DNA of 64,000 bases from Methylobacterium terrae. GTDB lineage: Bacteria > Pseudomonadota > Alphaproteobacteria > Rhizobiales > Beijerinckiaceae. The translations under genes were made by a program, and so were the position numbers. Positions 2,423 through 18,578 of the stretch are shown here, piece by piece (within the stretch, counting starts at the first letter, position 1; each line of letters starts with the position of its first letter). The notes beneath the pieces are model-generated. The model was not told where the DNA came from, searched no databases, and saw nothing but the letters and a program-made list of their open reading frames with translations. The stretch is from NCBI RefSeq assembly GCF_003173755.1, contig NZ_CP029553.1, positions 4,488,001-4,552,000 on the forward strand, read 5' to 3'.

Positions 2423-2974
2423 ATGACGCCGAACGGCGAGAGACCGGGCCGCTACGCGCCGTCCCAGAAGGCGCTGCACTGGATCGTCGCGATCCTGGTC
2501 TTCGCCCTGGTGCCGATCGCGCTCGCCATGGCCAACCTGCCCGACGGGCCGCTGAAGAACGCGCTCTACGAGTGGCACAAGTCGTTCGGGCTCACCGTGC
2601 TGGCGCTGGCGCTGGCCCGCCTCCTGGTGCGCGCCGCCCGCGGCGCCCCGCCCCTCGTCGCCGGCCTGCCGGCCTGGCAGCGCCGGGCGGCGCACGCCTC
2701 GCATCTCGCGCTCTACGTCCTGATCGTCGTGGTGCCGCTGCTCGGCTGGGCCGGCACCTCGGCCTGCTGCGCGCCGGTGATGCTCTACTTCACGCTGCCC
2801 CTCACCCTGCCGGTCTCCGGCGGCATGCCGGTCGGCGAGGCGATCCTCCGGGTGCACCAGGTCGCGGCCTTCACGCTGGTCGCGCTCGTGGTGCTGCACG
2901 CGGGCGCGGCCCTGCATCACCACCTGGTGCGGCGGGACGGGACGCTGCGGCGGATGTGGCCGGGAGGGGGCTGA
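2423..2974 (+). CDS. cytochrome b561 family protein
   Basis: 183 residues with four hydrophobic segments, typical of bacterial cytochrome b561, a di-haem inner-membrane protein thought to move electrons between quinol and periplasmic acceptors. Histidines in the right places are H17 of KALHWIV in helix 1, H50 of YEWHKSFG in helix 2, and the HQV and HAG positions in helices 3 and 4. The ATG at 2423 is preferred over the earlier GTG at 2413, which is out of frame. It is divergent from ribA, with 208 bp between the two starts. The exact donor and acceptor cannot be told from sequence. Confidence 0.85.
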   Translation: MTPNGERPGRYAPSQKALHWIVAILVFALVPIALAMANLPDGPLKNALYEWHKSFGLTVLALALARLLVRAARGAPPLVAGLPAWQRRAAHASHLALYVLIVVVPLLGWAGTSACCAPVMLYFTLPLTLPVSGGMPVGEAILRVHQVAAFTLVALVVLHAGAALHHHLVRRDGTLRRMWPGGG

Positions 2975-3624
2975 GCGGACCGATCGGACGGTTGCCCCGC
3001 ATCGACGCGCCGGCGGCCGGTCGCGAGCGGGCATGCCTGGTCGAGGCGCCGGCCCTTTGCCTCATTTCGCAATCGTCGCCTTTCAATGACTGGAGCGCTG
3101 CGATAAGGAAGGCCAATCACAGCTCTGACTAGGACGGTCTGTGAATCGGTTGTTCGCCGCATGGTAAGCACGGCATGGTTTGTCGAGCAGCACGACGATG
3201 AACAGAACAATAAAACGCATCAATGGCGATGTGGAGAAGGCGGCGCAGTCACATTCGTCGCGATGAACCGACAGGACGCGACGGCGGCTCTTGAGGCGTT
3301 CACAGCACGACAGGCCGGTCCGGGTAGAACGGGACGGCTGATCGCGTGACGCAACCGGGCGACGACGGACCTGCCGCGAGCGGGACGATGGCCGGTCTCC
3401 CGTGCTGCGTTCCGGCCGGAACCCGGGGAGCGCTGATCCGGATCCGACGACGGATGTTGCGTGAGGTGCCCGGAAGGTTGGTCACGCATGTCTCGCAACG
3501 CGGCGGCCGCCGACGAAGACGAGAACTTTGGTGAGGGACATCAGGTCCCTCGATCTATAGAGCATCACACGACTTCTGTTCGCGGCTGCTGCGCTGACGG
3601 AAGCCGTCAACGGAAGGCGAAATC
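2975..3624. other. 650-bp intergenic stretch without a supported gene
   Basis: The stretch is less GC-rich than its neighbours around 3060-3250. Short frames are present (for example 3161-3349) but have no ribosome site, no recognisable product and unlike codon use. A small perfect hairpin, GAGGGAC (3533-3539) pairing with GTCCCTC (3545-3551), lies about 75 bases before manC. Nothing else is identifiable. Confidence 0.5.
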
Positions 3625-5067
3625 ATGTCGCACGAAACCGGTAGCCTGATCCATCCGATCATCCTGTGCGGCGGGTCCGGGACGCGGTTGTGGCCGGCCT
3701 CCCGCGAGAGCTTCCCCAAGCAGTTCATCCCCCTCGCCGAGCCGGATCGCTCCTCGTTCCAGGCCACCGCCGCGCGTCTCGGCGATGCCGCGATCTTCGA
3801 GCGGCCGGCCGTCATCACCGCCAACGATGCCCGCTTCCTCGTCGCCGAGCAGCTCGCGCAGGCCGGAATCAAGGCCGACATCCTGCTCGAGCCGTGCCGG
3901 CGCGACTCCGCTCCGGCCGTCGCCGTCGCGGCGCTCCACGCCGCCTCGCGCGATCCGGAAGCCCTGGTGCTGATCCTGCCCGCCGACCACGCCGTCGGGG
4001 ACGACGCGGCCTTCGCCCGCGCCGCCCGCGCCGCCCGCGCGGGGGCCGAGGCCGGAGCCATCATGACCCTCGGCATCACGCCGACCCATCCCTCGACCGC
4101 CTACGGCTACATCCAGCCCGGCGGCCCGATGCCGGGCCGGGCCGGCGAGGCGGGTGCCCAGACCGTCGCCCGCTTCCTCGAGAAGCCGGATGCCGGCCGC
4201 GCCGCCGACCTGATCGCGGAGGGCGCCCTCTGGAACGGCGGCTACTTCCTGTTCCGCGCCGACGTGATGCTGGAGGAGCTCGAGGCCCATGCCCCGGCCG
4301 TGCTCGCGGCGGCCCGCGGCGCCGTCGAGACGGCCACCCGCGACCTCGACTTCGTGCGCCTCGGCGAGGCGGCGTTCGCGCAGGCGCCGCAGATCTCGAT
4401 CGATTTCGCCGTCATGGAGCGGACCGAGCGGGCCGGCGTGCTGCCGGTGGCCTTCCCGTGGTCGGACATCGGCACCTGGGGGGCGCTGTGGGAGGTGTCG
4501 GGCCGGGATGGCGACGGCAACGCCCTGCGCGGCCGCGTCGCGGTACGGGATACGCGCAACAGCCTGGTCCACTCCTCCGGCGAGATCCTGACCACCGTGG
4601 TCGGCCTCGACGACGTGGTGGTGGTGGCGACGGACGACGCGGTGCTGGTGACGAGCCGCAGCGCCGGGGCCGGGGTGAAGGGCCTGGTCGAGACCCTGCG
4701 TGGGCGCGGCGAGCCGGAGGCGGACGCACACCGGCTGATGTACCGGCCGTGGGGCTCCTACCAGCGCATCGACATCGGCGGGCGCTTCCAGGTGAAGCGG
4801 ATCACCGTGAAGCCCGGCGGGCGCCTGTCGCTGCAGAAACATCATCACCGGGCCGAGCACTGGGTGGTGGTGCGCGGTACCGCCGAGGTGACGGTGGACG
4901 GGATCGTGCGGCTGGTCCACGAGAACGAGGCGGCCTACCTGCCGATCGGTTGCGTGCATCGTCTCGCCAATCCGGGAAAGATCCCGCTCGAACTGATCGA
5001 GGTGCAGGTCGGAAGCTATACCGGCGAGGACGACATCATCCGCATCGAGGACGTCTACGGCCGCTGA
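3625..5067 (+). CDS. manC: mannose-1-phosphate guanylyltransferase / mannose-6-phosphate isomerase
   Basis: A 480-residue bifunctional enzyme of normal length. The N-terminal nucleotidyltransferase carries the pyrophosphorylase signature GGSGTRLWPASRESF (16-30), a FLEKPD motif, and WNGGYFLF near residue 205. From about residue 374 (RPWGSY) it continues into the type II phosphomannose isomerase cupin, with QKHHHRAEHW metal-site histidines. Together these activities convert fructose-6-phosphate-derived mannose-6-phosphate and mannose-1-phosphate to GDP-mannose (a phosphomannomutase is needed in between), the sugar donor for exopolysaccharide and lipopolysaccharide. It stands alone: no polysaccharide genes flank it, though a GT4 glycosyltransferase sits about 9.5 kb downstream. 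Confidence 0.93.
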   Translation: MSHETGSLIHPIILCGGSGTRLWPASRESFPKQFIPLAEPDRSSFQATAARLGDAAIFERPAVITANDARFLVAEQLAQAGIKADILLEPCRRDSAPAVAVAALHAASRDPEALVLILPADHAVGDDAAFARAARAARAGAEAGAIMTLGITPTHPSTAYGYIQPGGPMPGRAGEAGAQTVARFLEKPDAGRAADLIAEGALWNGGYFLFRADVMLEELEAHAPAVLAAARGAVETATRDLDFVRLGEAAFAQAPQISIDFAVMERTERAGVLPVAFPWSDIGTWGALWEVSGRDGDGNALRGRVAVRDTRNSLVHSSGEILTTVVGLDDVVVVATDDAVLVTSRSAGAGVKGLVETLRGRGEPEADAHRLMYRPWGSYQRIDIGGRFQVKRITVKPGGRLSLQKHHHRAEHWVVVRGTAEVTVDGIVRLVHENEAAYLPIGCVHRLANPGKIPLELIEVQVGSYTGEDDIIRIEDVYGR

Positions 5068-6861: not shown

Positions 6862-7175
6862 CTCCAACCTTTTGTCCTTCGGGCGGGTCCGGTCCTGACG
6901 GCCCCGCGCCGCTGCTTCGCTCTCCGGCACCTCTGGCCGCCCGGTGTGTCCAGAATGGGACGGGGCCGGGGCAGGCCCGGAGGCGATTTTGCGGCACCGT
7001 CCCGGGCGGACGGGCGTTAGGCCTTCTGAAGCGACCGGCAGCGCGCGAAAAAATCGCGGGCGCGTCGGAACCAAATACTCCCCCGGGCATTTCCAGTCGC
7101 CACGCGGAGCGAGCGAACGATTGCTCCGGCGCCCCTTTCGGGGTCCGCGGGTCTGGAAAAGGACAATCCCTACCG
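6862..7175. other. divergent upstream region of the inositol-phosphate synthase gene
   Basis: 314 bp between two divergent starts, so it should hold both promoters. A GGCGCCCC / GGGGTCC imperfect hairpin occurs near 7130-7147. No consensus promoter is obvious. The ribosome site for the plus gene is a weak AAAGGACA about 11 bases before its ATG. Confidence 0.4.
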
Positions 7176-8366
7176 ATGAGCATGCAGCCCGGTCGGCGCG
7201 TCGGCGTCGCTTTCGTCGGGATGGGTGGGGCTGTCGCCACCACCGCCATCGCCGGCATCGAGATGATCAAGTCCGGTTCGAATCGTCTCGACGGTCTGCC
7301 CCTTGCGGGCCACGCGGTGGCCGGGATGGTCGGGTACAAGGATCTGGTCTTCGGCGGCTGGGATCTCAACGGCGACGACCTCGGCGCCGCGGCGGCCGGG
7401 CATGGCGTCCTCACCAGGCAGGACATCGAGAACGGTGCCCAGGTGCTCAACGGCATGAAGCCGTGGCCGGCGGTCGGCAGCGCCAAGTTCTGCAAGAACA
7501 TCGACGGCGGCAACCGCATCGTCGCCAAGGACCACCGCGAGGCGGTCGACTGCATCGCGGGCGACCTCAAGCGCTTCCGCGAGGAATCGGGCGTCGACGA
7601 CGTGGTGGTGGTCAACCTCGCCTCGACCGAGCGCTGGCCCGACCTCGACGACCCGACGCTGAACTCCGCCGCCGCCTTCGAGCGCGGCCTCGATTCGAGC
7701 GACGAGGCGATCAGCCCGGCGATGCTCTACGCCTACGCGGCGATCAAGAACGGCATTCCCTACGCCAACTTCACCCCGTCGGTCGCCGCCGACGTGCCGG
7801 CGCTGGTCGATCTCGCCAAGCAGATGAACGTCCCGGTCGCCGGCAAGGACGGCAAGACCGGCCAGACGATGATGAAGACGGTGCTGGCTCCGGCGCTCAA
7901 GTCGCGCGCGCTCCACGTCGACGGCTGGTTCTCGACCAACATCCTCGGCAACCGCGACGGCCTGGCGCTGAACGACAAGGACTCGCTCCAGTCCAAGCTC
8001 AACACCAAGGGCACGGTGCTGGATTCGATCCTCGGCTATCCGGTCGAGGATCACCTGGTCCACATCCACTATTATCGCCCGCGCGGCGACGACAAGGAGG
8101 CCTGGGACAACATCGACGTCACCGGCTTCCTCGGCCAGCGGATGCAGATCAAGATCAACTTCCTCTGCAAGGACTCGATCCTGGCGGCGCCCCTGGTGAT
8201 CGAGATCGCCCGCGTCCTGGATCTCGCCAAGAAGCGCGGCGACGGCGGCGTGCAGGAGCAGCTGTCGCTGTTCTTCAAGGCGCCGATGGTCAAGAACGGC
8301 CACGGCCCCGAGCACGCCTTCGGCGCGCAGGAGCGCATGCTGCTCGACTGGCTCGGCGTCCACTAG
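7176..8366 (+). CDS. inositol-3-phosphate synthase
   Basis: A 396-residue NAD-dependent cyclase that converts glucose-6-phosphate to 1D-myo-inositol 3-phosphate. The N-terminal Rossmann segment reads GVAFVGMGGAVATT, and the catalytic region contains VAGKDGKTGQTMMKT and the phosphate/lysine motifs ending YPVEDHLVHIHYY, all typical of bacterial and archaeal Ino1 proteins. The stop is two bases before the ATG of the HD-like gene, so the pair is very likely cotranscribed. In most bacteria this enzyme feeds inositol lipids, mycothiol or inositol solutes. Here it heads a cluster with a GT4 glycosyltransferase and a PIG-L deacetylase, so a glycosylated inositol product is the natural inference. Confidence 0.9.
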   Translation: MSMQPGRRVGVAFVGMGGAVATTAIAGIEMIKSGSNRLDGLPLAGHAVAGMVGYKDLVFGGWDLNGDDLGAAAAGHGVLTRQDIENGAQVLNGMKPWPAVGSAKFCKNIDGGNRIVAKDHREAVDCIAGDLKRFREESGVDDVVVVNLASTERWPDLDDPTLNSAAAFERGLDSSDEAISPAMLYAYAAIKNGIPYANFTPSVAADVPALVDLAKQMNVPVAGKDGKTGQTMMKTVLAPALKSRALHVDGWFSTNILGNRDGLALNDKDSLQSKLNTKGTVLDSILGYPVEDHLVHIHYYRPRGDDKEAWDNIDVTGFLGQRMQIKINFLCKDSILAAPLVIEIARVLDLAKKRGDGGVQEQLSLFFKAPMVKNGHGPEHAFGAQERMLLDWLGVH

Positions 8367-8368
8367 GG

Positions 8369-9295
8369 ATGGCCGACAGCCAGCTTGCGGCGGGCGGGGC
8401 TCACGCCCCGCTCGCCCAGCGCGACCTCCTGGTCGAGCTCAACGACATCAAGCGCGTCCGGTCCGCCGGGCGCCGCGGCTCGATCGCCGAGCGGCTCTTC
8501 CTCCAGGCCTGGTCGGCGCTGACCGGCGGCGCCGACCCGGCGGCGCTTGCCCTCGACATCACCGCCAAGGCGCTCGCGGCCTCCCGCCTCGGCGACCTCG
8601 ACGCGGCCTTCCTGAGCCTCGCCGGGCTGTCGCCGACCCAGGCCTCCGCCGTGCTGGTACGGGGCTTCGACGAGGTGGCGGGTCCGCTCGATCCGGCCCT
8701 GGCGGAGCGCCTGCGCGCCTGCCTCGCCGCGCCGCGGGACTGGACGCCCGGCCCCCTGCCGCATTTCGCCGTGCTCCAGGCCGACCAGCCGCGGGCCGGC
8801 GTCACCTGCCCGGGCAAGCCGCGCATCCTGCTCGAGCCGCCGGAGAACCACGCCGAGCACTGCCTGATGGTGGCGGTCTACGGCGTCGCCTTGAGCCCGT
8901 TCTACGGCGCCGACCCGACCACGGTGTTCGTCGCCGCCCTCGCCCATCACCTCCACAACGCCCTGATGCCGGATGCCGGCTTCACCGGCGAGATCCTGCT
9001 CGGCGACCATCTCGATGCGGTCATCGCGACCTTGAGCGATCGGGCGCTCTCCGAGCTGGACGCGCCGCTGCGGGACGTGGTCGCCTCATCGCGAAGGATC
9101 CTGGCGGACGACCGCACGGCGGAGGGCCGGGCCTTCCACGCCGCCGACGTGATCGACCGGGTGCTGCAGATCGCCCAGCACCTGCGGGCGGCCTCCCTCA
9201 CCATGGACACGGTGCTGGGCGAGATGGCGCTGGTGCATGACGGCCCGGTGAAGGGCTTTCACGACCGGGTGCTTGCCGACATGCGGCTGCCGTGA
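8369..9295 (+). CDS. HD-domain-like putative metal-dependent phosphohydrolase
   Basis: 308 residues, starting two bases after the inositol-phosphate synthase stop. The C-terminal two thirds resembles HD-superfamily helical hydrolases: H161 and H164 in ENHAEH, then H193, H194 and H196 in LAHHLHNA, and a later stretch HAADVIDRVLQIAQH. The usual His-Asp doublet is replaced by His-His, so the metal site is altered or shifted. The N-terminal 150 residues are alanine/leucine-rich without a known motif. Given its place it could dephosphorylate inositol phosphate or a glycosylated form. That is inference, and a non-catalytic role is equally possible. Confidence 0.6.
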   Translation: MADSQLAAGGAHAPLAQRDLLVELNDIKRVRSAGRRGSIAERLFLQAWSALTGGADPAALALDITAKALAASRLGDLDAAFLSLAGLSPTQASAVLVRGFDEVAGPLDPALAERLRACLAAPRDWTPGPLPHFAVLQADQPRAGVTCPGKPRILLEPPENHAEHCLMVAVYGVALSPFYGADPTTVFVAALAHHLHNALMPDAGFTGEILLGDHLDAVIATLSDRALSELDAPLRDVVASSRRILADDRTAEGRAFHAADVIDRVLQIAQHLRAASLTMDTVLGEMALVHDGPVKGFHDRVLADMRLP

Positions 9296-9386
9296 CGAGG
9301 GCGGCGGACGTCCTTGGGCGTCCGCGCCCGCGCTCTATCTCACGTCAGAGCCCGCCGCAGGGTGGGCGCCGCGAGGAAACGCATCC

Positions 9387-10559
9387 GTGATCCCGTTCGG
9401 GCTCCTCTCGCCGGTGACCGGCGAGGCGCTGCACCACGACACGCCCCACTCCCTGCGCGAGGGCAAGCGCGGCCCGCGCTGGCCGGTGGTCGACGGCATC
9501 CCCTACCTGCGGGTCGGGCGCGACGGCCTGAGGGCGGAGGTTCTGGGCCATCTCGACAAGGGCGCGCCGGGCCACGCCCTCGAATTGCTGCTCGCCGACC
9601 AGGACGATTGGTGGACCGGCCCGAAGGCCGATCCCGCGACCCTGCGCGAGCTCGTGCGCGAGATGAAGTACGTCAACCTGCGGGAGGCCTGCGCCCGCCT
9701 CGGCTGGGGCCGGGTCGGCGACTACTTCGTCAACCGCTGGACCGACCCGACCTATCTCGCGGGCCTCGCCCTCCTGGAGGCGCACTGGAACAAGCCGACC
9801 TGCGCCTTCGAGCTCGCCTGCGGCATCGGCCATTACCTGCGCGAGTTGCAGGGGCGGGGCGTGCGGGTGTCGGGCGGCGACGTGGTCTTCGCCAAGCTCT
9901 GGGTCGCCCGCCACTGGGTCGCCGGGCAGCGGCCGTTCCTCGTCTGCTTCGACGCCGCCTCGCCGCACTGGCCGATCGACCAGGCGCCGGTCGACCTCGT
10001 GATGTGCCACGACGCGTTCTACTTCCTGCCGGAGAAGGCCCGCATCCTCGATGCCCTGCGCAGGACCGCCGGCGAGGAGGGCTGGCTGGCCCTGAGCCAC
10101 GTCCACAACAGCGCCCGGCCCGGCTTCTCGGCCGGGCACGCGGTCTCCTCCGCCGAGATCGAGGAGCTGTTTCCCGACGGGCTCGTTTACGACGACGACG
10201 AGCTGACCCGGGCCCTCGTCGAGGCCCGCGCGCCGGTGCCGGCCGAGCCTGCCGCCCTCGACCACGTCGAGGCGTTCTCGGTGGTCTGCGGCCCCGGCAT
10301 GCGCCCGGCGCCCCGGCCCCTCGTCGACGGCCTGACCCTGCCGCGGGAGGGGGCGCATCTGCGGCTCAACCCGCTCTACGGGCCCGATCCCGCCGGGGGC
10401 TATACGATCGCCTGGCCGTCCGAGCGCTACCGCGACGAGTACGCGCCCCGCGCCACCTACCCGCTGCACTCCGAGGGCCCCGAGACCCTGGAAGCCAGCC
10501 CAGAGACCATCGACCGCGCTCGGATCCGCGAGTTCGTCGATCTGCCGGAGCGGTGGTGA
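9387..10559 (+). CDS. SAM-dependent methyltransferase with Trm112-like N-terminal segment
   Basis: 390 residues from a GTG at 9387 preceded by GAGGAAA. An upstream ATG at 9273 would overlap the previous gene and adds unlikely sequence. The N-terminus (LLSPVTGEAL ... VDGIPYLR) resembles the Trm112/UPF0434 zinc-ribbon fold but lacks its cysteines. A class I methyltransferase fold follows, with the SAM-binding motif FELACGIGHYLREL near residue 145 and an acidic strand VDLVMCHDAFYF. The C-terminal 100 residues are not recognised. It sits 91 bp after the HD-like gene on the same strand and is separated from the next gene by repeat DNA. The methyl acceptor is unknown, and the natural candidate is an intermediate of the surrounding pathway. 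Confidence 0.7.
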   Translation: MIPFGLLSPVTGEALHHDTPHSLREGKRGPRWPVVDGIPYLRVGRDGLRAEVLGHLDKGAPGHALELLLADQDDWWTGPKADPATLRELVREMKYVNLREACARLGWGRVGDYFVNRWTDPTYLAGLALLEAHWNKPTCAFELACGIGHYLRELQGRGVRVSGGDVVFAKLWVARHWVAGQRPFLVCFDAASPHWPIDQAPVDLVMCHDAFYFLPEKARILDALRRTAGEEGWLALSHVHNSARPGFSAGHAVSSAEIEELFPDGLVYDDDELTRALVEARAPVPAEPAALDHVEAFSVVCGPGMRPAPRPLVDGLTLPREGAHLRLNPLYGPDPAGGYTIAWPSERYRDEYAPRATYPLHSEGPETLEASPETIDRARIREFVDLPERW

Positions 10560-10639
10560 TGGGGGAATCGACGAGTCTTCAAGGCCCGCGCTTTCTCCTC
10601 GAGATAGAGCCGTCGGGTGGAGAAGGAGGGCGCGAGCTT

Positions 10640-11090
10640 TTCCCCTCCCCCCTCTGCGGGGGAGGGTGGCCCCCAGAGGGGGCCGGGAGAGGGGACGCCG
10701 CTTCCGGAGAAGTCGCGCGCTTCATGACGGGCGCCATACCCGGCATCGTCGCGCTGCCCCTCTCCCGCCCTGCTTCACAGGGCATCCTCCCCCGCAGAGG
10801 CAGGGCTGTTCGGGAAAAGATCGAGCGCGGGACATCCCCTCTCCCCGCGGGCGGGGAGAGGCCTTCACCCCCCTTGTCGGGGGTGAAGGGAGCCCGCAGG
10901 GCGAGGGTGAGGGGGTATCTCCGGACGAGGCTCCCCCGGCACCACCCCCTCACCCTCGCTCCGGCTACGCCTCCGCTCACTTCATCGACGACAAGGTCGA
11001 TGAAGTCCTCTCCCCGCCCGCGGGGAGAGGGGAAACAAGTGCCTCGATCTTTCCCCGGACAGCCCTGCTGCAGAGGGGGGACGGGAAAAG
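10640..11090. repeat. repeat family A, copy 1 (nested palindrome)
   Basis: This is the largest copy. Two 26-bp arms at 10836-10861 and 11007-11032 are exact reverse complements, and each can also fold on itself. Inner arms around GAGGGTGAGGGGGT (about 10902) and its complement (about 10945) make a second nested stem. A diverged subunit precedes it at 10640-10696. It fills most of the 583 bp between the methyltransferase and oxidoreductase genes. No gene is contained. Confidence 0.85.
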
Positions 11091-11142
11091 CCCACGCCCT
11101 CCATCGATGCGTCGTCGCGGTCGGACCGGCAGGGGTGAGCGC

Positions 11143-12183
11143 ATGACCGCCATCGGCTGGGGCATCGTCGGGTTCGGCTGGGTCGCCCGGGACTTCATGG
11201 CGCCGGCGATCCGGGCCGCCGGCCACCGCCTCGTCGCGATCTGCGATCCCGGGGCGGAGGCGCGGGAGGCGGCGTCCCGCCTCGGCGCGCGGGGCCACGC
11301 CGACCTCGCCGGGCTCATCGCCGAGCCGGAGGTCGAGGCGGTCTACGTCGCGACGCCCAACCATCTCCATCGCGGCGCCGTCGAGGCCCTGGCCGGGGCC
11401 GGCAAGGCGATCCTGTGCGAGAAGCCGATGGCGGCCGCGCTTTCCGACGCCGAGGCGATGGCGGCGTCGGTCGCCCGCACCGGGGTGCTCTACGGCACCG
11501 CCTTCGACCAGCGCCACCATCCCGCCCACCGGCTGCTCCGCGACGAGATCCGCGCCGGCCGGGTCGGCACCGTGACGGCGGTCCGGATCGTCTATGCCTG
11601 CTGGCTCGACCGGGGCTGGACGGCGATTCCCGGGCAAGCGAACTGGCGCATCGACCAGGCCCAGGCCGGCGGCGGGGCGCTGATGGACCTCGCCCCCCAC
11701 GGCCTCGACCTGACCGACTTCCTCCTCGACGAGCCGATCCTCGACGTCACGGCGCTGACCCAGGCGAGGGCGCAGGATTACGCGGTCGACGATGGCGCGC
11801 TCGTGATCGGCCGGACCGGGTCGGGCGTGCTGGCGAGCCTGCACGTCGCCTATAACTGCCCCGACGCGCTGCCGCGGCGCCGCCTGGAGATCGCCGGCAC
11901 CCGAGGCCTGCTCGTCGCCCTGAACACCATGGGCCAGGAGGCGGGCGGGAGCGTCACCGTCACGGACGGTGCCACGGGCGAGACCGTGCCGCTTCCCTTC
12001 GACGGAGAGGCCTCGCCGTTCCTGGAGCAGGTGCGGGCCTTCGGGCGCTCCCTTCGCGATCCGGCGGGGCGCGAGGCCTGGTCGGCCGAGCGCGACCTGC
12101 ACACCATGCGGCTCCTCGCCCGCGCCTACGCCGCCTCTCCCTCGCATCGCCCCGCCCCATCCCCCGTCGCGCCGGCCGCCTGA
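11143..12183 (+). CDS. Gfo/Idh/MocA family oxidoreductase
   Basis: 346 residues, NAD(P)-binding family that includes inositol 2-dehydrogenases and sugar dehydrogenases. The Rossmann motif GIVGFGWVARDF lies at 6-17, the conserved EKP (CEKPMAAAL) near residue 97 supplies the catalytic lysine, and a DLAPHGLDLTDFLL helix carries the usual histidine near residue 186. The ATG at 11143 is chosen because upstream sequence is repeat DNA. It is followed 24 bp later by the YcaO gene. With Ino1 and an isomerase-like TIM barrel in the same run, oxidation of an inositol or sugar hydroxyl is a reasonable role, but no substrate is shown by the sequence. Confidence 0.85.
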   Translation: MTAIGWGIVGFGWVARDFMAPAIRAAGHRLVAICDPGAEAREAASRLGARGHADLAGLIAEPEVEAVYVATPNHLHRGAVEALAGAGKAILCEKPMAAALSDAEAMAASVARTGVLYGTAFDQRHHPAHRLLRDEIRAGRVGTVTAVRIVYACWLDRGWTAIPGQANWRIDQAQAGGGALMDLAPHGLDLTDFLLDEPILDVTALTQARAQDYAVDDGALVIGRTGSGVLASLHVAYNCPDALPRRRLEIAGTRGLLVALNTMGQEAGGSVTVTDGATGETVPLPFDGEASPFLEQVRAFGRSLRDPAGREAWSAERDLHTMRLLARAYAASPSHRPAPSPVAPAA

Positions 12184-12207
12184 GGCCCGCGGAGGAGCTT
12201 TCTCATC

Positions 12208-13764
12208 GTGGACAGACCCACCGCCCCCCGCCCCTATCCCTTCGGCCGGACACGCGTCATCGAGGGCCTGCCCGAGCGCCTGCCGGATGCCGTCCGGGCC
12301 TATCTCGACGTGCTGCCGCCGGGCCGGATCGTCGGCTTTCCGCTCGCGCCCCTCGACCGCACCGGGGTGCCGTGCTGGTTCGTGTCGCTGTTCCTCGACG
12401 ATCCCTACTTCGTCGGCGCGATGCCGAGCGGCATCGGCTACGGTGCCACCGACGACGAGGCGATCATCGGCTCGGTGGCGGAGATCGCCGAGAACCTGAT
12501 GCCGAGCCTGGCGCTGATCCCGCGCAAGAAGGAGCGCGCCAGCTACCACGACCTCGTGCGGGTCTTCGGCGCGGGGTCGGTCGCCGATCCGCTCACCCTC
12601 GGCCTGCCGGCGGGGAGCCCCGTGAACCGCGACACCGTGCTCGAATGGACCGGGACGGTGCGGGCGCGCACGGGCGAGACGGTGCTGATGCCCCTCGACC
12701 TCGCGGCGACCGACTACTTCGAGCTGTCGCCGGGCTACGAGCCCTTCACCAATCTCATCACCAACGGGCTGGGCGCCGGGCCGGACGTCGAGTTCGCCCT
12801 CGGGCACGGGCTGCTCGAACTGCTCCAGCGCGACGGCAACGGCCTCCTGTTCCGCGCCCTCGACCAGGGCGTGATGCTCGACGTCTCGGAGGGCCTCGGT
12901 CCCGAGACGCGCGGCATGCTCGACCGGCTGGAGGCCCTCGGCATCCGCGCGATGCCGAAATTCGCCACCGACCAGTTCGGCTTCACCAACGTCTACTGCG
13001 TCGGCTACGACGTCGACGCGTCGCGAACCCCGGCACCGATCGCCCTCTCGGCCTGCGGCGAGGCCTGCGATCCCGACCGCGAGCGGGCCCTGCGCAAGGC
13101 GATCCTCGAATTCCAGGCGGCGCGGGTGCGCAAGACCTTCGGCCACGGTCCGCTGGAGCTCGCCCGCTCGATCACCCCGCCGGGCTATGTCGACGCCTTC
13201 ATCGAGAAGGCGCTGCCGAGCCTCGACCTGGAGGAGGGGAGGGCGCTCGCCGCGATGCTCGACTGGATCGGTGAGCCGGCCGAGACCCTGCGGGGCTTCC
13301 TCACTGAGACCGTCTATTCCGAGCGCGGCACCAAGCGTTTCACCGACCTGCCGACGCAGGCCGCGCCGACCGGCCAGGACCGCGCCCGCATCGCCCGCGA
13401 GCGGCTGGAGGGGCAAGGCTTCGACGTGCTCTACGTCGACGCCTCGCCGCCGGGAGGCGGTGTCGGCATCGTCAAGGCGATCGTGCCGGGGCTCGAGGTC
13501 GAGACCATGAGCTACTACCGCATCGGCGAGCGCAACACGCGAAAGCTCATCGAGCGCGACCACCCGCTGATCCGCTTCGGGCAGGAGAGCGAATCCTTGC
13601 GCCCGGTGTGCCTGACCCCGGAGGCGCTGGAGCGCTTCGGCGGCCAGCCGCTGTTCGACGTCGCGCTCGCCGACGAGATCGTCGGCCCGCTCTATCCCCT
13701 CTACCGCGAGCCGGAATCGCACCACGCGCCGTTCCGCCTCGAGCGCCGGGGGAGGGCGGCATGA
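12208..13764 (+). CDS. YcaO-domain protein
   Basis: 518 residues from a GTG with a strong GGAGGAG site. YcaO enzymes use ATP to phosphorylate an amide oxygen and so install thiazolines, thioamides or amidines. The three ATP/Mg segments are recognisable: GYGATDDEAIIGSVAEIAEN (78-97), a helix with E204 and R208-D209 (EFALGHGLLELLQRDG), and CDPDRERALRKAILEFQAAR (287-306). The C-terminus ends in FRLERRGRAA with no proline-rich PxPxP tail. No TfuA, E1-like partner or precursor peptide is visible nearby, so a RiPP role is not supported. The stop overlaps the next ATG (ATGA at 13761-13764), showing tight coupling with the TIM-barrel gene. Confidence 0.85.
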   Translation: MDRPTAPRPYPFGRTRVIEGLPERLPDAVRAYLDVLPPGRIVGFPLAPLDRTGVPCWFVSLFLDDPYFVGAMPSGIGYGATDDEAIIGSVAEIAENLMPSLALIPRKKERASYHDLVRVFGAGSVADPLTLGLPAGSPVNRDTVLEWTGTVRARTGETVLMPLDLAATDYFELSPGYEPFTNLITNGLGAGPDVEFALGHGLLELLQRDGNGLLFRALDQGVMLDVSEGLGPETRGMLDRLEALGIRAMPKFATDQFGFTNVYCVGYDVDASRTPAPIALSACGEACDPDRERALRKAILEFQAARVRKTFGHGPLELARSITPPGYVDAFIEKALPSLDLEEGRALAAMLDWIGEPAETLRGFLTETVYSERGTKRFTDLPTQAAPTGQDRARIARERLEGQGFDVLYVDASPPGGGVGIVKAIVPGLEVETMSYYRIGERNTRKLIERDHPLIRFGQESESLRPVCLTPEALERFGGQPLFDVALADEIVGPLYPLYREPESHHAPFRLERRGRAA

Positions 13765-14585
13765 GCCTGCGCTTCGCCTACAACACCAACGGGGCGGCCA
13801 ACCACCGCCTCGACGATGCGCTGAGCCTCATCGCCGAGGCCGGCTACGACGGCGTCGCGCTCACCCTCGACATCCACCACCTCGATCCCTTCGCGGAGGA
13901 CTGGGCGAGGCAAGCCGAGCGGGTGCGCGGCCGGCTCTACTCCCTCGGCCTCGGCTCGGTGATCGAGACCGGCGCCCGCTTCCTCCTCGACCCGCGGGCC
14001 AAGCACGAGCCGACCCTGGTGACCGCGGATGCCGCAGGCCGCGCCCGCCGGGTCGCCTTCCTGCACCGCGCCGTCGACATCGCGGCGATCCTCGGTTCGG
14101 AGGCGGTGTCGTTCTGGGCCGGCGTGCCGAAGCCCGGCGTCGATCCGGCGGAGGCGCGGGGCTGGCTGCGGGACGGGCTGGAGCAGGTCGTGGCCTACGC
14201 CGCCGAGCGACGGGTGGTCGCGGCGCTCGAACCCGAGCCCGGGATGCTGGTCGAGACCCTGGACGACTACGCGGCGCTCGACGTCCCGGGCCTTCGCCTG
14301 GCGCTCGATACCGGCCACTGCCTGGTGACGCAGGAACGCGAGCCCGCGGCCGCAATCCGGGAATTCGCCGACCGGCTCGGCACGGTGGCGATCGAGGACA
14401 TGGCGCGCGGCAGCCACATCCATCTGCCCTTCGGCGAGGGCGACATGGACATAGCCGGCGTGCTCGACGCCCTCGAGGCGATCCATTTCGACAAGCTGGT
14501 CTGCGTCGAGCTCTCCCGCGAGAGCCACCGCGCCGACCGGATGATCCCGGATTCGCTGGCCTACCTCCGGGAGTGCCGCCGATGA
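13761..14585 (+). CDS. sugar phosphate isomerase/epimerase-like TIM barrel
   Basis: 274 residues of the xylose isomerase-like (AP endonuclease 2) TIM-barrel family, which includes inosose dehydratase and inosose isomerase (IolE, IolI). Visible features are RFAYNTNGAANHRL at the start, ALEPEPGM with a metal-type Glu near 158, LALDTGHC with Asp and His near 180-183, and HIHLPFGEGDMDI near 214-226. It overlaps the YcaO stop and its own TGA overlaps the glycosyltransferase ATG, so three genes are translationally coupled. Together with the Gfo/Idh/MocA protein it could convert an inositol-derived ketone. The assignment to the fold is firm, the reaction is inferred. Confidence 0.82.
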   Translation: MSLRFAYNTNGAANHRLDDALSLIAEAGYDGVALTLDIHHLDPFAEDWARQAERVRGRLYSLGLGSVIETGARFLLDPRAKHEPTLVTADAAGRARRVAFLHRAVDIAAILGSEAVSFWAGVPKPGVDPAEARGWLRDGLEQVVAYAAERRVVAALEPEPGMLVETLDDYAALDVPGLRLALDTGHCLVTQEREPAAAIREFADRLGTVAIEDMARGSHIHLPFGEGDMDIAGVLDALEAIHFDKLVCVELSRESHRADRMIPDSLAYLRECRR

Positions 14586-15817
14586 GGATCTGTTTCGTCA
14601 GCCGGCGCTACTTCCCGGCGATCTCCGGCATGAGCGTCTACGCCCAGAACCTGCTGCGCGAACTCGTCGGCGCCGGCCACGACGTCACGATGGTGAGCCA
14701 GTACCGGGGCGATGCCTTCGGCACCAAGGTCTATGGCGGCGGCCCGCCGCCGCCGGTCCCGGGCGTGCGGGTGATCGGCCTCGAACAGCGCGGCGAGCAG
14801 GAGAGCGGCGATTTCGAGCGCGACATCGCCACGATGGTCGAGACGATCGCGGCCGAGCACGTCAAGAAACCCTTCGACGTGCTGCACGCCCAGTACGGCT
14901 ACCCGACCGGTTTCGCGACGCTGATCGCCTCGCAGCGCTTGGGCGTGCCGAACGTGGTCTCGATCCAGGGCGGCGACGGCCACTGGGTCGGCTCGTGCTG
15001 CGAGACCCACCGCCTCGCCATGGTGCGGGTGCTGGCCCACGCCAACGCGCTCCTGATCGGCGGGCGCTCCTTCGTCGCCGAGGTCTGCGACCGGCTCGGC
15101 AGCGATCCCGACCGCTTCACCATCGTGCCGGGCGCCGTCGACACCGCGCGCTTCCGGCCCCCCGAGGGCTGGCAGCCGGGCGACGCCGCCGATCCGGTGC
15201 GGCTGTTCTACCACGGCCGGGTCGACCGCCGGAAAGGCGTGCTCGACTTCCTCGACGCCTTGAGCCTGCTGCGCCTGCGCGGCACGCCGTTCTCCGCCAT
15301 CATCTCGGGCATCGGTCCCGACGTGGAGCCGGCGCGGTCCCTCGCCGCCGATCTCGGTTTCCCGGAATCGCAGGTGCGCTTCACCGGCTACGCCGATTAC
15401 GACGCGGTGCCGGGCCTCTACGCGATGGGCGACGTCTTCGTCTCGCCGACCTACGCGGAAGGGTTCTCCAACACCATCCTGGAAGCGATGGCGGCGGGCC
15501 AGGCGGTGGTCTCGACCCACTCGGTCGGCGTCTCGGACTGCCTGCGCGACGGCGAGAACGGTCTCATGGTCCAGCCCGGCGACGTGCCGGCGCTCGCCGA
15601 GGCCCTGCACCGGATCATCACCGATCGCCCCTTGCGCGCCCGCCTCGCGGCGGCGGCGCTGGAGGAGTGCCGGCGGGTCTATTCCTGGCAGGCGGTGGGC
15701 CGGCAGATCATGGAGGTCTACGCGGCGGTGAAGGGCGTGCGGCCGGACCCGGCCTTCGATCCGGACCTGCCGCACGACCCCGGCTGCCGCTTCCGGGCCG
15801 AACCGCACCTGCTGTGA
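14582..15817 (+). CDS. GT4-family glycosyltransferase
   Basis: 411 residues, GT-B fold retaining glycosyltransferase. The start MRICFVSRRYFPAISGMSVY is typical of family 4, and the C-terminal donor-binding domain shows LFYHGRVDRRKGV and SPTYAEGFSNTILEAMAAG with the conserved EGF...E motif. The ATG at 14582 overlaps the preceding stop. A GTG nine bases earlier is a less likely start. GT4 enzymes include MshA, which joins GlcNAc to inositol phosphate, and BshA, and the adjacent PIG-L deacetylase repeats the MshA-MshB pairing. Donor sugar cannot be read from sequence. Confidence 0.87.
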   Translation: MRICFVSRRYFPAISGMSVYAQNLLRELVGAGHDVTMVSQYRGDAFGTKVYGGGPPPPVPGVRVIGLEQRGEQESGDFERDIATMVETIAAEHVKKPFDVLHAQYGYPTGFATLIASQRLGVPNVVSIQGGDGHWVGSCCETHRLAMVRVLAHANALLIGGRSFVAEVCDRLGSDPDRFTIVPGAVDTARFRPPEGWQPGDAADPVRLFYHGRVDRRKGVLDFLDALSLLRLRGTPFSAIISGIGPDVEPARSLAADLGFPESQVRFTGYADYDAVPGLYAMGDVFVSPTYAEGFSNTILEAMAAGQAVVSTHSVGVSDCLRDGENGLMVQPGDVPALAEALHRIITDRPLRARLAAAALEECRRVYSWQAVGRQIMEVYAAVKGVRPDPAFDPDLPHDPGCRFRAEPHLL

Positions 15818-15826
15818 GGGCAACTC

Positions 15827-15850
15827 CCCCTCTCCCACACGGGAGAGGGG
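15827..15850. repeat. repeat family B, single half copy
   Basis: A 24-bp self-complementary unit, CCCCTCTCCC-ACAC-GGGAGAGGGG, lies in the 58 bp between the glycosyltransferase and deacetylase genes. It matches the right arm of the full B copies at 36181-36204 and 47582-47605 and may attenuate transcription inside the cluster. Confidence 0.85.
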
Positions 15851-15875
15851 ATCCCGCGTCCTGCTTGAGTCTTTG

Positions 15876-16625
15876 ATGCCCACAGCCCTCGCCCTCTCGC
15901 CCCACCTCGACGACGCCGCCTTCTCCTGCGGCGGCACCCTGGCGCAGCTCGCCGGCCGGGGATGGCGGGTGGTGATGGTGACCCTGCTCACCGCCGGCGT
16001 GACCGAGCCGACGGGCTTCGCCCTCGCCTGCCAGCTCGACAAGGGGCTCGGGCCGGAGGTCGACTACATGGCCCTTCGCCGCGACGAGGACCGGGCGGCG
16101 GCCGCCGCGCTCGGCCTCGGCCCTCCGGTCCACGTCGCCCTGTGGGAGGCGCCGCATCGCGGCTACGCCTCGGCGCCCGAGCTCTTCGCCGAGACGCGGC
16201 CCGACGACCGGCTCGCCGACGATCTCGCGCCCGTGCTCGACCGCCTGACGGCGGAGGCCGCGCCCGACCTGCTGCTGGCGCCGCAAGGGGTGGGCGGCCA
16301 CGTCGACCACGTCCAGCTGGTGCGGGCGCTGATCGCCCGCGCGCCGGCCTGCCCGGTCCTGTGGTGGCGCGACTTTCCCTACACCGTCCGCCACCCCGAC
16401 CCGAAGGAGCCGTTCCGCGACACCTTCGCGGCCCTGACCCCCGTCACCGTGCGCCTGTCCCCGGAGGAGGAGGCGGCCAAGCACGCGGCCTGCGCGGCCT
16501 ATGCCAGCCAGATCGGCTTCCAGTTCGGCGGTCCCGACGGACTCGCCGAGCGCCTGGGCGCCGAGAATGCGCGCGAGCATTTCCGCCTCGCCGGCGCCCT
16601 GCCGGACGGGCTCGCCCTCGCGTGA
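15876..16625 (+). CDS. PIG-L family deacetylase
   Basis: 249 residues, zinc-dependent N-deacetylase of the GlcNAc-PI / MshB / BshB family. The zinc and base motif SPHLDD (H10, D12, D13) and the second motif GGHVDH (H142, D144, H145) are intact, so the enzyme should be active. Family members remove acetyl from N-acetylglucosamine attached to inositol, malate or lipid. The ATG at 15876 is preferred to the TTG one codon earlier. Its stop overlaps the next start (GTGA at 16622-16625). Its position after a GT4 gene in a cluster headed by inositol-phosphate synthase makes a GlcNAc-inositol type substrate the leading inference. Confidence 0.87.
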   Translation: MPTALALSPHLDDAAFSCGGTLAQLAGRGWRVVMVTLLTAGVTEPTGFALACQLDKGLGPEVDYMALRRDEDRAAAAALGLGPPVHVALWEAPHRGYASAPELFAETRPDDRLADDLAPVLDRLTAEAAPDLLLAPQGVGGHVDHVQLVRALIARAPACPVLWWRDFPYTVRHPDPKEPFRDTFAALTPVTVRLSPEEEAAKHAACAAYASQIGFQFGGPDGLAERLGAENAREHFRLAGALPDGLALA

Positions 16626-17266
16626 GCGGCGGACCGGCCGCGCCCGACATCGCCGGCCCGAAGAGCCTGGCCGATTCCGGCGCCGTCGCGGCGCGCCACG
16701 CCCTCGCGGAGGTGAGCCCCCACCTCGCCCCCTTGCGCCGCCTCGCCGAGCGGATCCGGGCCGAGCAGGACCGGCCGGTGCCGGAGGCCGACCCCCTCGA
16801 CGGCGGGGTGGAGGCCCGCCTGCTCCTGCTCCTCGAGACGCCGGGCCCGGCCACCGGCCGTACCGCCTTCGTCTCCCGCGACAACCCGACCGGCACCGCC
16901 GCCAACCTGTTCCGCTTCCTCGCCGGCGCCGGCATCCCGCGCGCCGACACCCTGATCTGGAACGCCGTGCCCTGGGTGATCCACGCTCCCGGCGCCCGCA
17001 ACCGGGCGCCCCGCACGGCCGAGATCCGGGCGGCGCGGGCCTACCTGCCGCCGCTCCTCGCCCTGATGCCGAACCTCGCGGTCGTGGTCCTGTCCGGCCG
17101 GGTCTCGCAGGGCTTGGGCCCCGCCCTCGCCGAGGCGCGTCCCGGGCTGCCCGCGGTGGCGATCCCGCATCCGAGCCCGACCTACGTCTGCACCAGCCCG
17201 GAGGTGCCCCGGCGCATCGCCGCGGGGCTTGAGGAGGCCGCCCGCCACCTCGGCCTCCCCGGGTGA
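16622..17266 (+). CDS. uracil-DNA-glycosylase superfamily-like protein
   Basis: 214 residues from a GTG overlapping the deacetylase stop. Segments LLLLETPGPATG (about 67-78), DNPTGTAANLF, LIWNAVPWV, VVVLSG and the C-terminal IPHPSPTYV follow the order of motifs in the family 4/5-like uracil-DNA glycosylase fold (the GEAPG and HPSP motifs). The first 60 residues are not recognised. It lacks the cysteines of iron-sulfur UDGs. It could be a DNA repair enzyme that happens to sit in the run, or a UDG-fold protein recruited to small-molecule work. The overlapping start favours coexpression with the deacetylase. Confidence 0.65.
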   Translation: MSGGPAAPDIAGPKSLADSGAVAARHALAEVSPHLAPLRRLAERIRAEQDRPVPEADPLDGGVEARLLLLLETPGPATGRTAFVSRDNPTGTAANLFRFLAGAGIPRADTLIWNAVPWVIHAPGARNRAPRTAEIRAARAYLPPLLALMPNLAVVVLSGRVSQGLGPALAEARPGLPAVAIPHPSPTYVCTSPEVPRRIAAGLEEAARHLGLPG

Positions 17267-17435
17267 TTCGCCGCTGCCGCATGGTCCGGCTGGTCATTCG
17301 GCGGGAGACGGCCTACATGGCGGGCACAAGCGAGCGGGGCTCGGTCGGAGTGCCGCCGGGCACCTTCGTGCGCGAGCCTGGCCGCGATCGGCCGCGGGCT
17401 CGCGCCGGCGACCAGCGGGGTCGGACGCCGACGCG

Positions 17436-18578
17436 ATGAATTTCGCCAGCAAGGACAACAACCTCGCGCGGGCCGAGCCCCTGCGCGATGCGGGCGCCGG
17501 GCCGGAGATGCCGCGCGACGAGGATCCGGCCGGGCAGGACCCGGGCCGTGATCCGCAATCGCCCCCGGCAGGTCATGCGTCCCCGGAACGTCATGCCCGC
17601 CACCGCCGCCGCTACGCCTGGCTCGGCACGCTGGCGAGCGTCGTGCTGTTCGTCATCTCCCTCGCGGTGCTGGGCAAGCTCGTCTCGACCGTCACATGGG
17701 CCGAGCTGCGCACCGCCTTCCTGGCGGCGACGCCGGAGCAGGTCGGCCTCGCCGTCGCGCTCGTCGTGGTGAGCTACCTCTTCCTCACCTGCTACGACGC
17801 CCTGGCGCTGCGCCAGCTCAAGCTGAAGGTGCCCTACCGCACCACCGCGCTCGCCTCCTTCACCAGCTACGCGGTGAGCTTCAACCTCGGCTTTCCCCTG
17901 CTCACCGCCGGCACGGTGCGCTACTGGATCTATTCGGCGCAAGGCCTCAGCCCCGGGCGCATCGCGGCGCTCACGATCGTTGCCGGCTTCACCTTCTGGC
18001 TCGGCATGGGGGCGGTGCTCGGCATCAGCCTGATCCGCGAGGCCGAGCCGCTCTCGCACCTCACCTATACCAGCGTCCTCCTCAACCAGGGGCTCGGGGT
18101 CGCGACGCTGGCGGCGGTGCTGGCCTACCTCGCCTGGGTCTCGCTGAAGCGCCGCAGCGTCAAGGTGCGGGGCTGGCGGCTGGAACTGCCGGGGCTGAAG
18201 CTGAGCTTGAGCCAGATGCTGGTCGGCGCCGGCGACGTCTGCGCGGCGGCGGGCGTGCTCTACGTGCTGCTGCCGGCCGGCCACGGCCTCAGCTTCGAGA
18301 CCTTCGTGGCGATCTACGTGCTCGCCGCGATGCTCGGCATCGCCAGCCACGCGCCGGGCGGGCTCGGGGTGTTCGAGGCCACGGTGCTGCTGGCGCTCTC
18401 CGGCCTGCCGCGGGAATCGGTGCTCGGCGCGCTGCTGCTGTTCCGGGTCTGCTACTATCTGGTGCCGTTCGTGGTGGCGCTCGCGGCGCTCGGCGCCTAC
18501 GAGATCGCCAAGCGGGCGCGCCTGACCCCGCGGGAAGCGCCCAACGATGATGCCGCCGAGAGCGACGAAAAGCCCTGA
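17436..18578 (+). CDS. UPF0104 / lysylphosphatidylglycerol synthase-like membrane protein
   Basis: 380 residues. A hydrophilic N-terminal tail of about 65 residues rich in Pro, Arg and Glu is followed by eight or so hydrophobic segments resembling the flippase-like N-terminal half of MprF and YbhN. Characteristic stretches are SYAVSFNLGFPLLTAGTVRY, SHAPGGLGVFEATVLL and FRVCYYLVPFVVAL. The aminoacyl-transfer domain of MprF is absent, so lipid or glycolipid movement across the membrane is the usual guess for this family. It lies 169 bp after the cluster ending at 17266 and overlaps the start of the histidine kinase gene by 32 bp. Confidence 0.82.
   Translation: MNFASKDNNLARAEPLRDAGAGPEMPRDEDPAGQDPGRDPQSPPAGHASPERHARHRRRYAWLGTLASVVLFVISLAVLGKLVSTVTWAELRTAFLAATPEQVGLAVALVVVSYLFLTCYDALALRQLKLKVPYRTTALASFTSYAVSFNLGFPLLTAGTVRYWIYSAQGLSPGRIAALTIVAGFTFWLGMGAVLGISLIREAEPLSHLTYTSVLLNQGLGVATLAAVLAYLAWVSLKRRSVKVRGWRLELPGLKLSLSQMLVGAGDVCAAAGVLYVLLPAGHGLSFETFVAIYVLAAMLGIASHAPGGLGVFEATVLLALSGLPRESVLGALLLFRVCYYLVPFVVALAALGAYEIAKRARLTPREAPNDDAAESDEKP

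Follow-up and report, generated by a model that had tools for sequence, protein, structure and literature searches.

Mycothiol synthesis (Ino1, MshA-D) brings together an inositol phosphate synthase, a GT4 glycosyltransferase and a PIG-L deacetylase in one pathway, and bacillithiol synthesis (BshA-C) follows the same GT4 plus PIG-L logic with malate as the acceptor. Glycopeptide N-acetylglucosamine deacetylases (teicoplanin Orf2*, Dbv21) act on antibiotic aglycones. The mycosporine-like amino acid pathway, which has a UV role, is a short cluster with a sugar-phosphate cyclase, a methyltransferase and an ATP-dependent condensation; its cyclase is a different one, it uses ATP-grasp or nonribosomal peptide synthetase enzymes, and it has no GT4 or PIG-L. 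Here we describe a locus of eight genes, running from Ino1 to PIG-L, in the genome of Methylobacterium terrae. The window analysed is the stretch of 64,000 nucleotides at positions 4,488,001 to 4,552,000 of contig NZ_CP029553.1. The eight genes are conserved, co-inherited and shared among bacteria of leaves and air, and we put at about 50% the probability that together they build a single small, polar amino-glycoside derived from inositol, in a general stress or sunlight response.

The genome is a single contig of 6.16 Mb, and the GC content of the window is 70.6%. The initial annotation had called nine open reading frames (ORFs) on the plus strand, with 4-base overlaps at 13761, 14582 and 16622, and all of these were confirmed. 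They code for an Ino1 protein of the myo-inositol-1-phosphate synthase family (7176-8366), an HD-domain protein (8369-9295), an S-adenosylmethionine-dependent methyltransferase of the Methyltransf_11 family with a GTG start (9387-10559), a Gfo/Idh/MocA oxidoreductase (11143-12183), a YcaO-family protein, also with a GTG start (12208-13764), a xylose-isomerase-like TIM barrel (13761-14585), a GT4 glycosyltransferase (14582-15817), a PIG-L deacetylase (15876-16625) and, ninth, a UDG-superfamily protein (16622-17266). Eight of the nine family names hold at the Pfam cut-off; the HD domain falls just under it (20.3 bits versus 22.5), and the name there leans on a predicted structure of the HD type. 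None of the NCBIfam matches listed for the nine proteins (for GT4, the best 25 of 40) reaches its cut-off, so by that standard none of them has a named function. The gene run is not unbroken in the window, since a gap of 583 bases (10560-11142) with nine inverted-repeat pairs parts the methyltransferase from Gfo. The gap looks like inserted repeat elements; it is absent from relatives such as L013, in which 4 bases are shared by the two ORFs.

Conservation was assessed with YcaO as the protein query against the GTDB collection; of 148 candidate stretches, the 80 best were taken as loci. All eight core genes lie on one strand in the order Ino1-HD-methyltransferase-Gfo-YcaO-TIM-GT4-PIG-L in 74 of the 80, a grouping that exceeds chance. 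Five of the other six loci end at contig ends with their remaining genes in order, and the sixth (L080, Microvirga) has YcaO alone. Within the genus Methylobacterium YcaO is present in 108 of 111 genomes; M. populi BJ001 also has one (P0040). The HD protein is found in none of the three genomes that lack YcaO (its query matches nine listed genomes of the genus), which indicates loss as one block. Among 289 genomes of the class, YcaO has matches in 16 at E <= 0.001, strong only in two of the genus Methylobacterium. In the family (397 genomes, E <= 1e-60) 60 match, 45 from Methylobacterium and 15 from five other genera. In 12 of the stretches from these 15, other cluster genes lie next to YcaO in the usual order, several of the 12 ending at contig ends; in three, all Microvirga, YcaO stands alone. 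Four of the 15 stretches are not new evidence, because they are the same contigs as L078-L081. The HD protein matches in 10 of 398 genomes across the phylum, six of them Methylobacterium and the other four weak.

The locus is horizontally mobile. Among 72,556 plasmid records YcaO occurs in four (two Methylobacterium, Roseomonas haemaphysalidis and Hymenobacter volaticus), and the HD protein occurs in the same four. The Roseomonas plasmid carries all eight genes. That of H. volaticus, a member of the Bacteroidota, has Gfo and GT4 matches each in two pieces and no methyltransferase match. Both plasmids hold an extra protein between Gfo and YcaO (L129 7678-8529; L130 7631-8461), which begins with a rubredoxin-like ribbon (a weak match in L129) and continues with a metallo-beta-lactamase fold; the Hymenobacter copy matches at 43% identity, and the protein is also found near the locus in L144 (identical to L079), L147, L155 and L156.

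The UDG-superfamily gene, which the initial annotation had counted in the cluster, is judged not to be part of the pathway. It is present in 70 of the 80 GTDB loci and overlaps PIG-L by 4 bases in the window. Since it is missing beside the locus in Roseomonas, Hymenobacter and the stretches of the 15 other-genus genomes, it is best described as a Methylobacterium neighbour.

The inositol link of the locus is carried by Ino1 and the TIM barrel. M. terrae has two Ino1 genes, and the cluster copy is 26% identical to the other over 169 amino acids. In a tree of 11 rows the five cluster Ino1 proteins form one clade (97/97) separate from five ebo-like ones; the rooting of this tree is meaningless because the second Ino1 of the genome is a very long branch. 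The TIM barrel has the Glu, Asp, His and Glu positions of a presumed metal site, and an alignment of 11 relatives shows them conserved. A relative of this protein is found in 37 plasmid records, and Ino1 lies within 6.2 kb of it in 36, the exception being Haladaptatus. Four of the 36 are the clusters themselves; five of the 33 other regions were opened (three Streptomyces, Gemmatirosa and Halobaculum), and all are ebo-like operons with Ino1 beside UbiA, TatD-like and TIM proteins (Gemmatirosa is unannotated, and its ORFs were named by eye). By this proximity the TIM family accompanies the making of inositol phosphate in two kinds of gene set that are otherwise dissimilar.

The locus and the ebo-like operons are alike in having Ino1, as the cyclase, together with a TIM barrel, the latter 34-51% identical to that of the cluster (47-51% in the three Streptomyces operons). 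They differ in that the locus lacks UbiA, EboA, a TatD-like EboB, EboE and EboF, all of which the annotated Streptomyces operons hold. Only Ino1, TIM and Gfo (the last in Gemmatirosa, 27-30% identity) of the cluster proteins are matched in the five opened regions. The EboA domain model NF035938 has no match in the M. terrae genome, and matches one of 150 genomes and none of 14 controls. An origin of the N-terminal domain of the HD protein from EboA was considered and rejected, this model being silent in the genome and the one EboA sequence compared by eye being unlike. In its published description the ebo operon has another cyclase, EboD, and the word inositol was not found in three papers on it (PMC5133447, PMC6282210, PMC9235831). 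Streptomyces and haloarchaeal plasmids carry ebo-like operons in which Ino1 takes the cyclase's place (L131, L132, L133, L135).

Outside these operons the TIM barrel is also found with the HD protein. In Acuticoccus the two are adjacent in three of four loci (L124 9840-11937, L125, L126; the fourth has HD alone), at 52-54% identity to the cluster TIM and 30-32% to the cluster HD protein. A further relative of the HD protein, P0257 of Streptomyces sp. MJP52, is 36% identical to the Acuticoccus one.

The predicted structure of the HD protein has an HD domain and a helical N-terminal domain. The closest folds among the 50 matches listed are HDDC2 and the 5'-deoxynucleotidase YfbR; myo-inositol oxygenase has no entry among those 50, which does not exclude it, and Foldseek alone gave this model no match under E 0.001. 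For the methyltransferase no solved relative was found by sequence at E 0.01, and its predicted model has a mean pLDDT (predicted local distance difference test) of 79.8 with a partly low core. The best NCBIfam model for Gfo is IolG (109.1 bits versus a cut-off of 355).

The solved relatives closest to GT4 are D-inositol-3-phosphate glycosyltransferase and PimA, which use inositol phosphates. Those of PIG-L include teicoplanin-type pseudoaglycone deacetylases; the SPHLDD motif is common to both, and it and the GHVDH motif are kept, while the locus is without genes for such an antibiotic scaffold. Together with Ino1, the pair supports a dedicated small-molecule pathway, with GT4 and PIG-L probably of the amino-glycoside-making kind. 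The inositol compound of the initial annotation thus gains in support from the Ino1-TIM linkage and the GT4 relatives; its thiol analogy does not, since none of the mycothiol and bacillithiol models tried was reached.

YcaO is the sole member of its family in M. terrae, and its Glu and Arg motifs, which we take to be the ATP/Mg site, are kept in five of five aligned relatives. It is possibly an ATP-driven activator of a non-peptide substrate. To our knowledge the only YcaO precedent in a non-peptide pathway is thioguanine synthesis. No publication linking YcaO and inositol with PIG-L, or with a glycosyltransferase in Methylobacterium, was found in the open-access literature.

The sequence before Ino1 gives a new lead, a putative promoter resembling those of the general stress sigma factor EcfG. 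GGAAC-N17-GTT occurs within 200 bp upstream of Ino1 in 56 of the 74 loci with enough upstream sequence, where 0.59 are expected from its density. Spacers of N12-16, 18, 19 and 21-23 are found in no locus, and N20 in four. The variant GGAAC-N17-ATT occurs within the same 200 bp in 10 more loci, close relatives of the window, and in the window itself (7067-7091, plus strand), with 0.06 expected; either form is found in 66 of the 74. The EcfG consensus given for M. extorquens in PMC4814048 is GAAC-N16,17-C/GGTT, which the motif fits in its spacing and from which it differs at the -10 element. For Sphingomonas melonis, PMC6599016 gives GGAAC-N17-20-GTT, and its table of genes under EcfG control includes sites that end in CAGTT and CATT.

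UV-repair genes stand beside the locus, or beside its YcaO, in two other genera. In Microvirga arabica (L080 6471-9820) a DHH/RecJ-like protein, UvsE (156.8 bits, cut-off 124.45) and a protein of the spore photoproduct lyase family (619.3 bits, cut-off 437.55) directly precede YcaO in that order, and a further lyase homologue is encoded at 2621-3667. A second Microvirga genome repeats the UvsE-lyase-YcaO run, and the third ends at a contig end. In Roseomonas two lyase-family genes lie one gene past PIG-L, one scoring 569.3 bits, over its cut-off, and the other 251.3 of the 400 bits that the sister model asks. Among 190 genomes of the class the first lyase family is above cut-off in one, M. terrae itself. 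The link to sunlight that these neighbours offer is one of association.

If the eight genes are a pathway for an amino-glycoside of inositol, its chemistry can be sketched from the families. Ino1 would convert glucose 6-phosphate to inositol 3-phosphate, and the HD protein, as a presumed phosphatase, would remove the phosphate before or after glycosylation. Gfo and the TIM barrel may oxidize, isomerize or dehydrate the ring. GT4 would add an N-acetyl-hexosamine, which PIG-L would deacetylate to a free amine, and the methyltransferase would add a methyl group. YcaO may activate a carbonyl or amide oxygen at the expense of ATP, so that an amine or sulfur replaces the oxygen. Each of these steps, their order, the product and its role are inferred.

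Several observations weigh against such a pathway. The loci, being related, do not count as independent samples. Two of the 12 other-genus clusters are incomplete with room present: Ino1 goes unmatched in L147, and PIG-L in L153. Three Microvirga genomes carry YcaO without the other cluster genes, so that it may serve a role apart from them. Ino1 was found in none of the four Acuticoccus genomes, and the HD-TIM pair that they keep can thus work without it. Phosphatase activity of the HD protein is not assured, because His replaces the usual Asp: the paired His-Asp gives way to HH in every row of the 54-row and 7-row alignments, and to HA in the unaligned distant relative P0254. For GT4 the exopolysaccharide models give a better fit (EpsE, 100.2 bits) than does MshA (82), and none of these scores reaches its cut-off. 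Neither form of the promoter motif is found in eight of the 74 loci; the relatives' version, read as GGAAC-N16-AGTT, carries an A at the C/G position of the M. extorquens consensus, and the window has ATT. The lyase gene of M. terrae lies ~190 kb from the cluster, and no UV gene was found by Pfam among the 20 other window proteins scanned.

The first alternative is a glyco-inositol lipid or envelope glycan, for which GT4 and PIG-L would make a glucosamine-inositol headgroup, anchor or glycan and a flippase-like protein would move the product. Relatives of PIG-L and PimA act on phosphatidylinositol, exopolysaccharide enzymes are the best NCBIfam models of GT4, and in Roseomonas an MdoH-like GT2 follows PIG-L. 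An MprF-like or LPG-synthase-TM membrane protein lies after the cluster (17229-18578), as it does in 71 of the 80 loci, and may be an exporter or flippase. However, the loci with this gene are all from Methylobacterium, and neither the 15 other-genus stretches nor Roseomonas and Hymenobacter showed it next to the cluster. The conserved set has no lipid-linking enzyme, and YcaO, TIM and Gfo are left unexplained, so that we regard this alternative as unlikely.

A second alternative is that YcaO acts on a peptide or ribosomal protein, as in ribosomally synthesized and post-translationally modified peptides (RiPPs) or backbone thioamides, and only happens to lie among sugar genes. Peptides are the substrates of most YcaO proteins that have been characterised, the closest solved relative is MJ1094, a model for McrA-glycine thioamidation gives 52.5 bits, the genome holds a single YcaO, and the Microvirga copies stand without the cluster. 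Yet this thioamidation model is missed by a wide distance (cut-off 365), as is the SagD-type cyclodehydratase model TIGR03604 (77.1 versus 219.25). TfuA has no match in the genome, where among the 14 controls it matches Methanosarcina acetivorans. No precursor gene would fit in L013, where neighbouring genes touch or overlap all the way from HD to PIG-L; a precursor could lie elsewhere. Since YcaO is also tightly co-inherited with the sugar genes, action on a peptide is very unlikely here, and RiPP chemistry is unlikely too.

A low-molecular-weight thiol of the mycothiol or bacillithiol kind, with YcaO replacing the MshC or BshC cysteine ligase, would explain Ino1, GT4 and PIG-L as the front half of mycothiol synthesis and the GT4 scores with MshA (82 bits) and BshA (72.4), but is very unlikely, and every tested model is missed: Ino1 (TIGR03450, 45.6 versus 638 bits), MshA (TIGR03449, cut-off 462.5), MshB (TIGR03445, 16.1 versus 224.35), BshA (cut-off 273.7), BshB (27.6 versus 182.5 for BshB1, and 13.2 versus 195.25) and, in the genome, MshC (TIGR03447, 258 versus 485.1, likely an ordinary cysteinyl-tRNA synthetase because all 14 control genomes match this model, one over cut-off). 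The set also lacks an acetyltransferase, and Gfo, TIM and the methyltransferase have no role in a thiol pathway. The detailed analogy to MshA/MshB and BshA/BshB in the initial annotation is therefore not supported; YcaO, TIM, Gfo, methyltransferase and HD protein have no counterpart in mycothiol synthesis, nor has Ino1 in bacillithiol synthesis.

For the amino-glycoside pathway a natural candidate product is a compound that absorbs ultraviolet A (UVA), because the locus is near-universal in the genus, absent from most sampled relatives and has UV-repair neighbours. PMC9664959 and PMC12573535 refer to compounds from Methylobacterium that absorb UVA and to the name methylobamine. That the locus makes methylobamine or a relative of it, as an inositol-derived mycosporine analogue, is a doubtful proposal, and its likeness to the mycosporine pathway appears to be one of logic only. 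In work by Yoshida in 2017 the UVA compound was reportedly highly polar and found, among many leaf isolates, only in Methylobacterium. Ino1 would replace the sedoheptulose cyclase of mycosporine synthesis, Gfo and TIM would make an enone from the inositol ring, and the methyltransferase would methylate it. YcaO, replacing the ATP-grasp enzyme, would then join the enone to the amino sugar that GT4 and PIG-L supply. No paper naming genes for such a bacterial UVA screen was found in the open-access literature.

Methylobacterium ranks among the major genera of leaf surfaces, and the presence of YcaO in nearly all of the genomes examined makes the product of the locus probably core to its life. The pathway would place YcaO in non-peptide, inositol-based chemistry, and if the link to sunlight holds, the locus would account genetically for a bacterial UVA screen.

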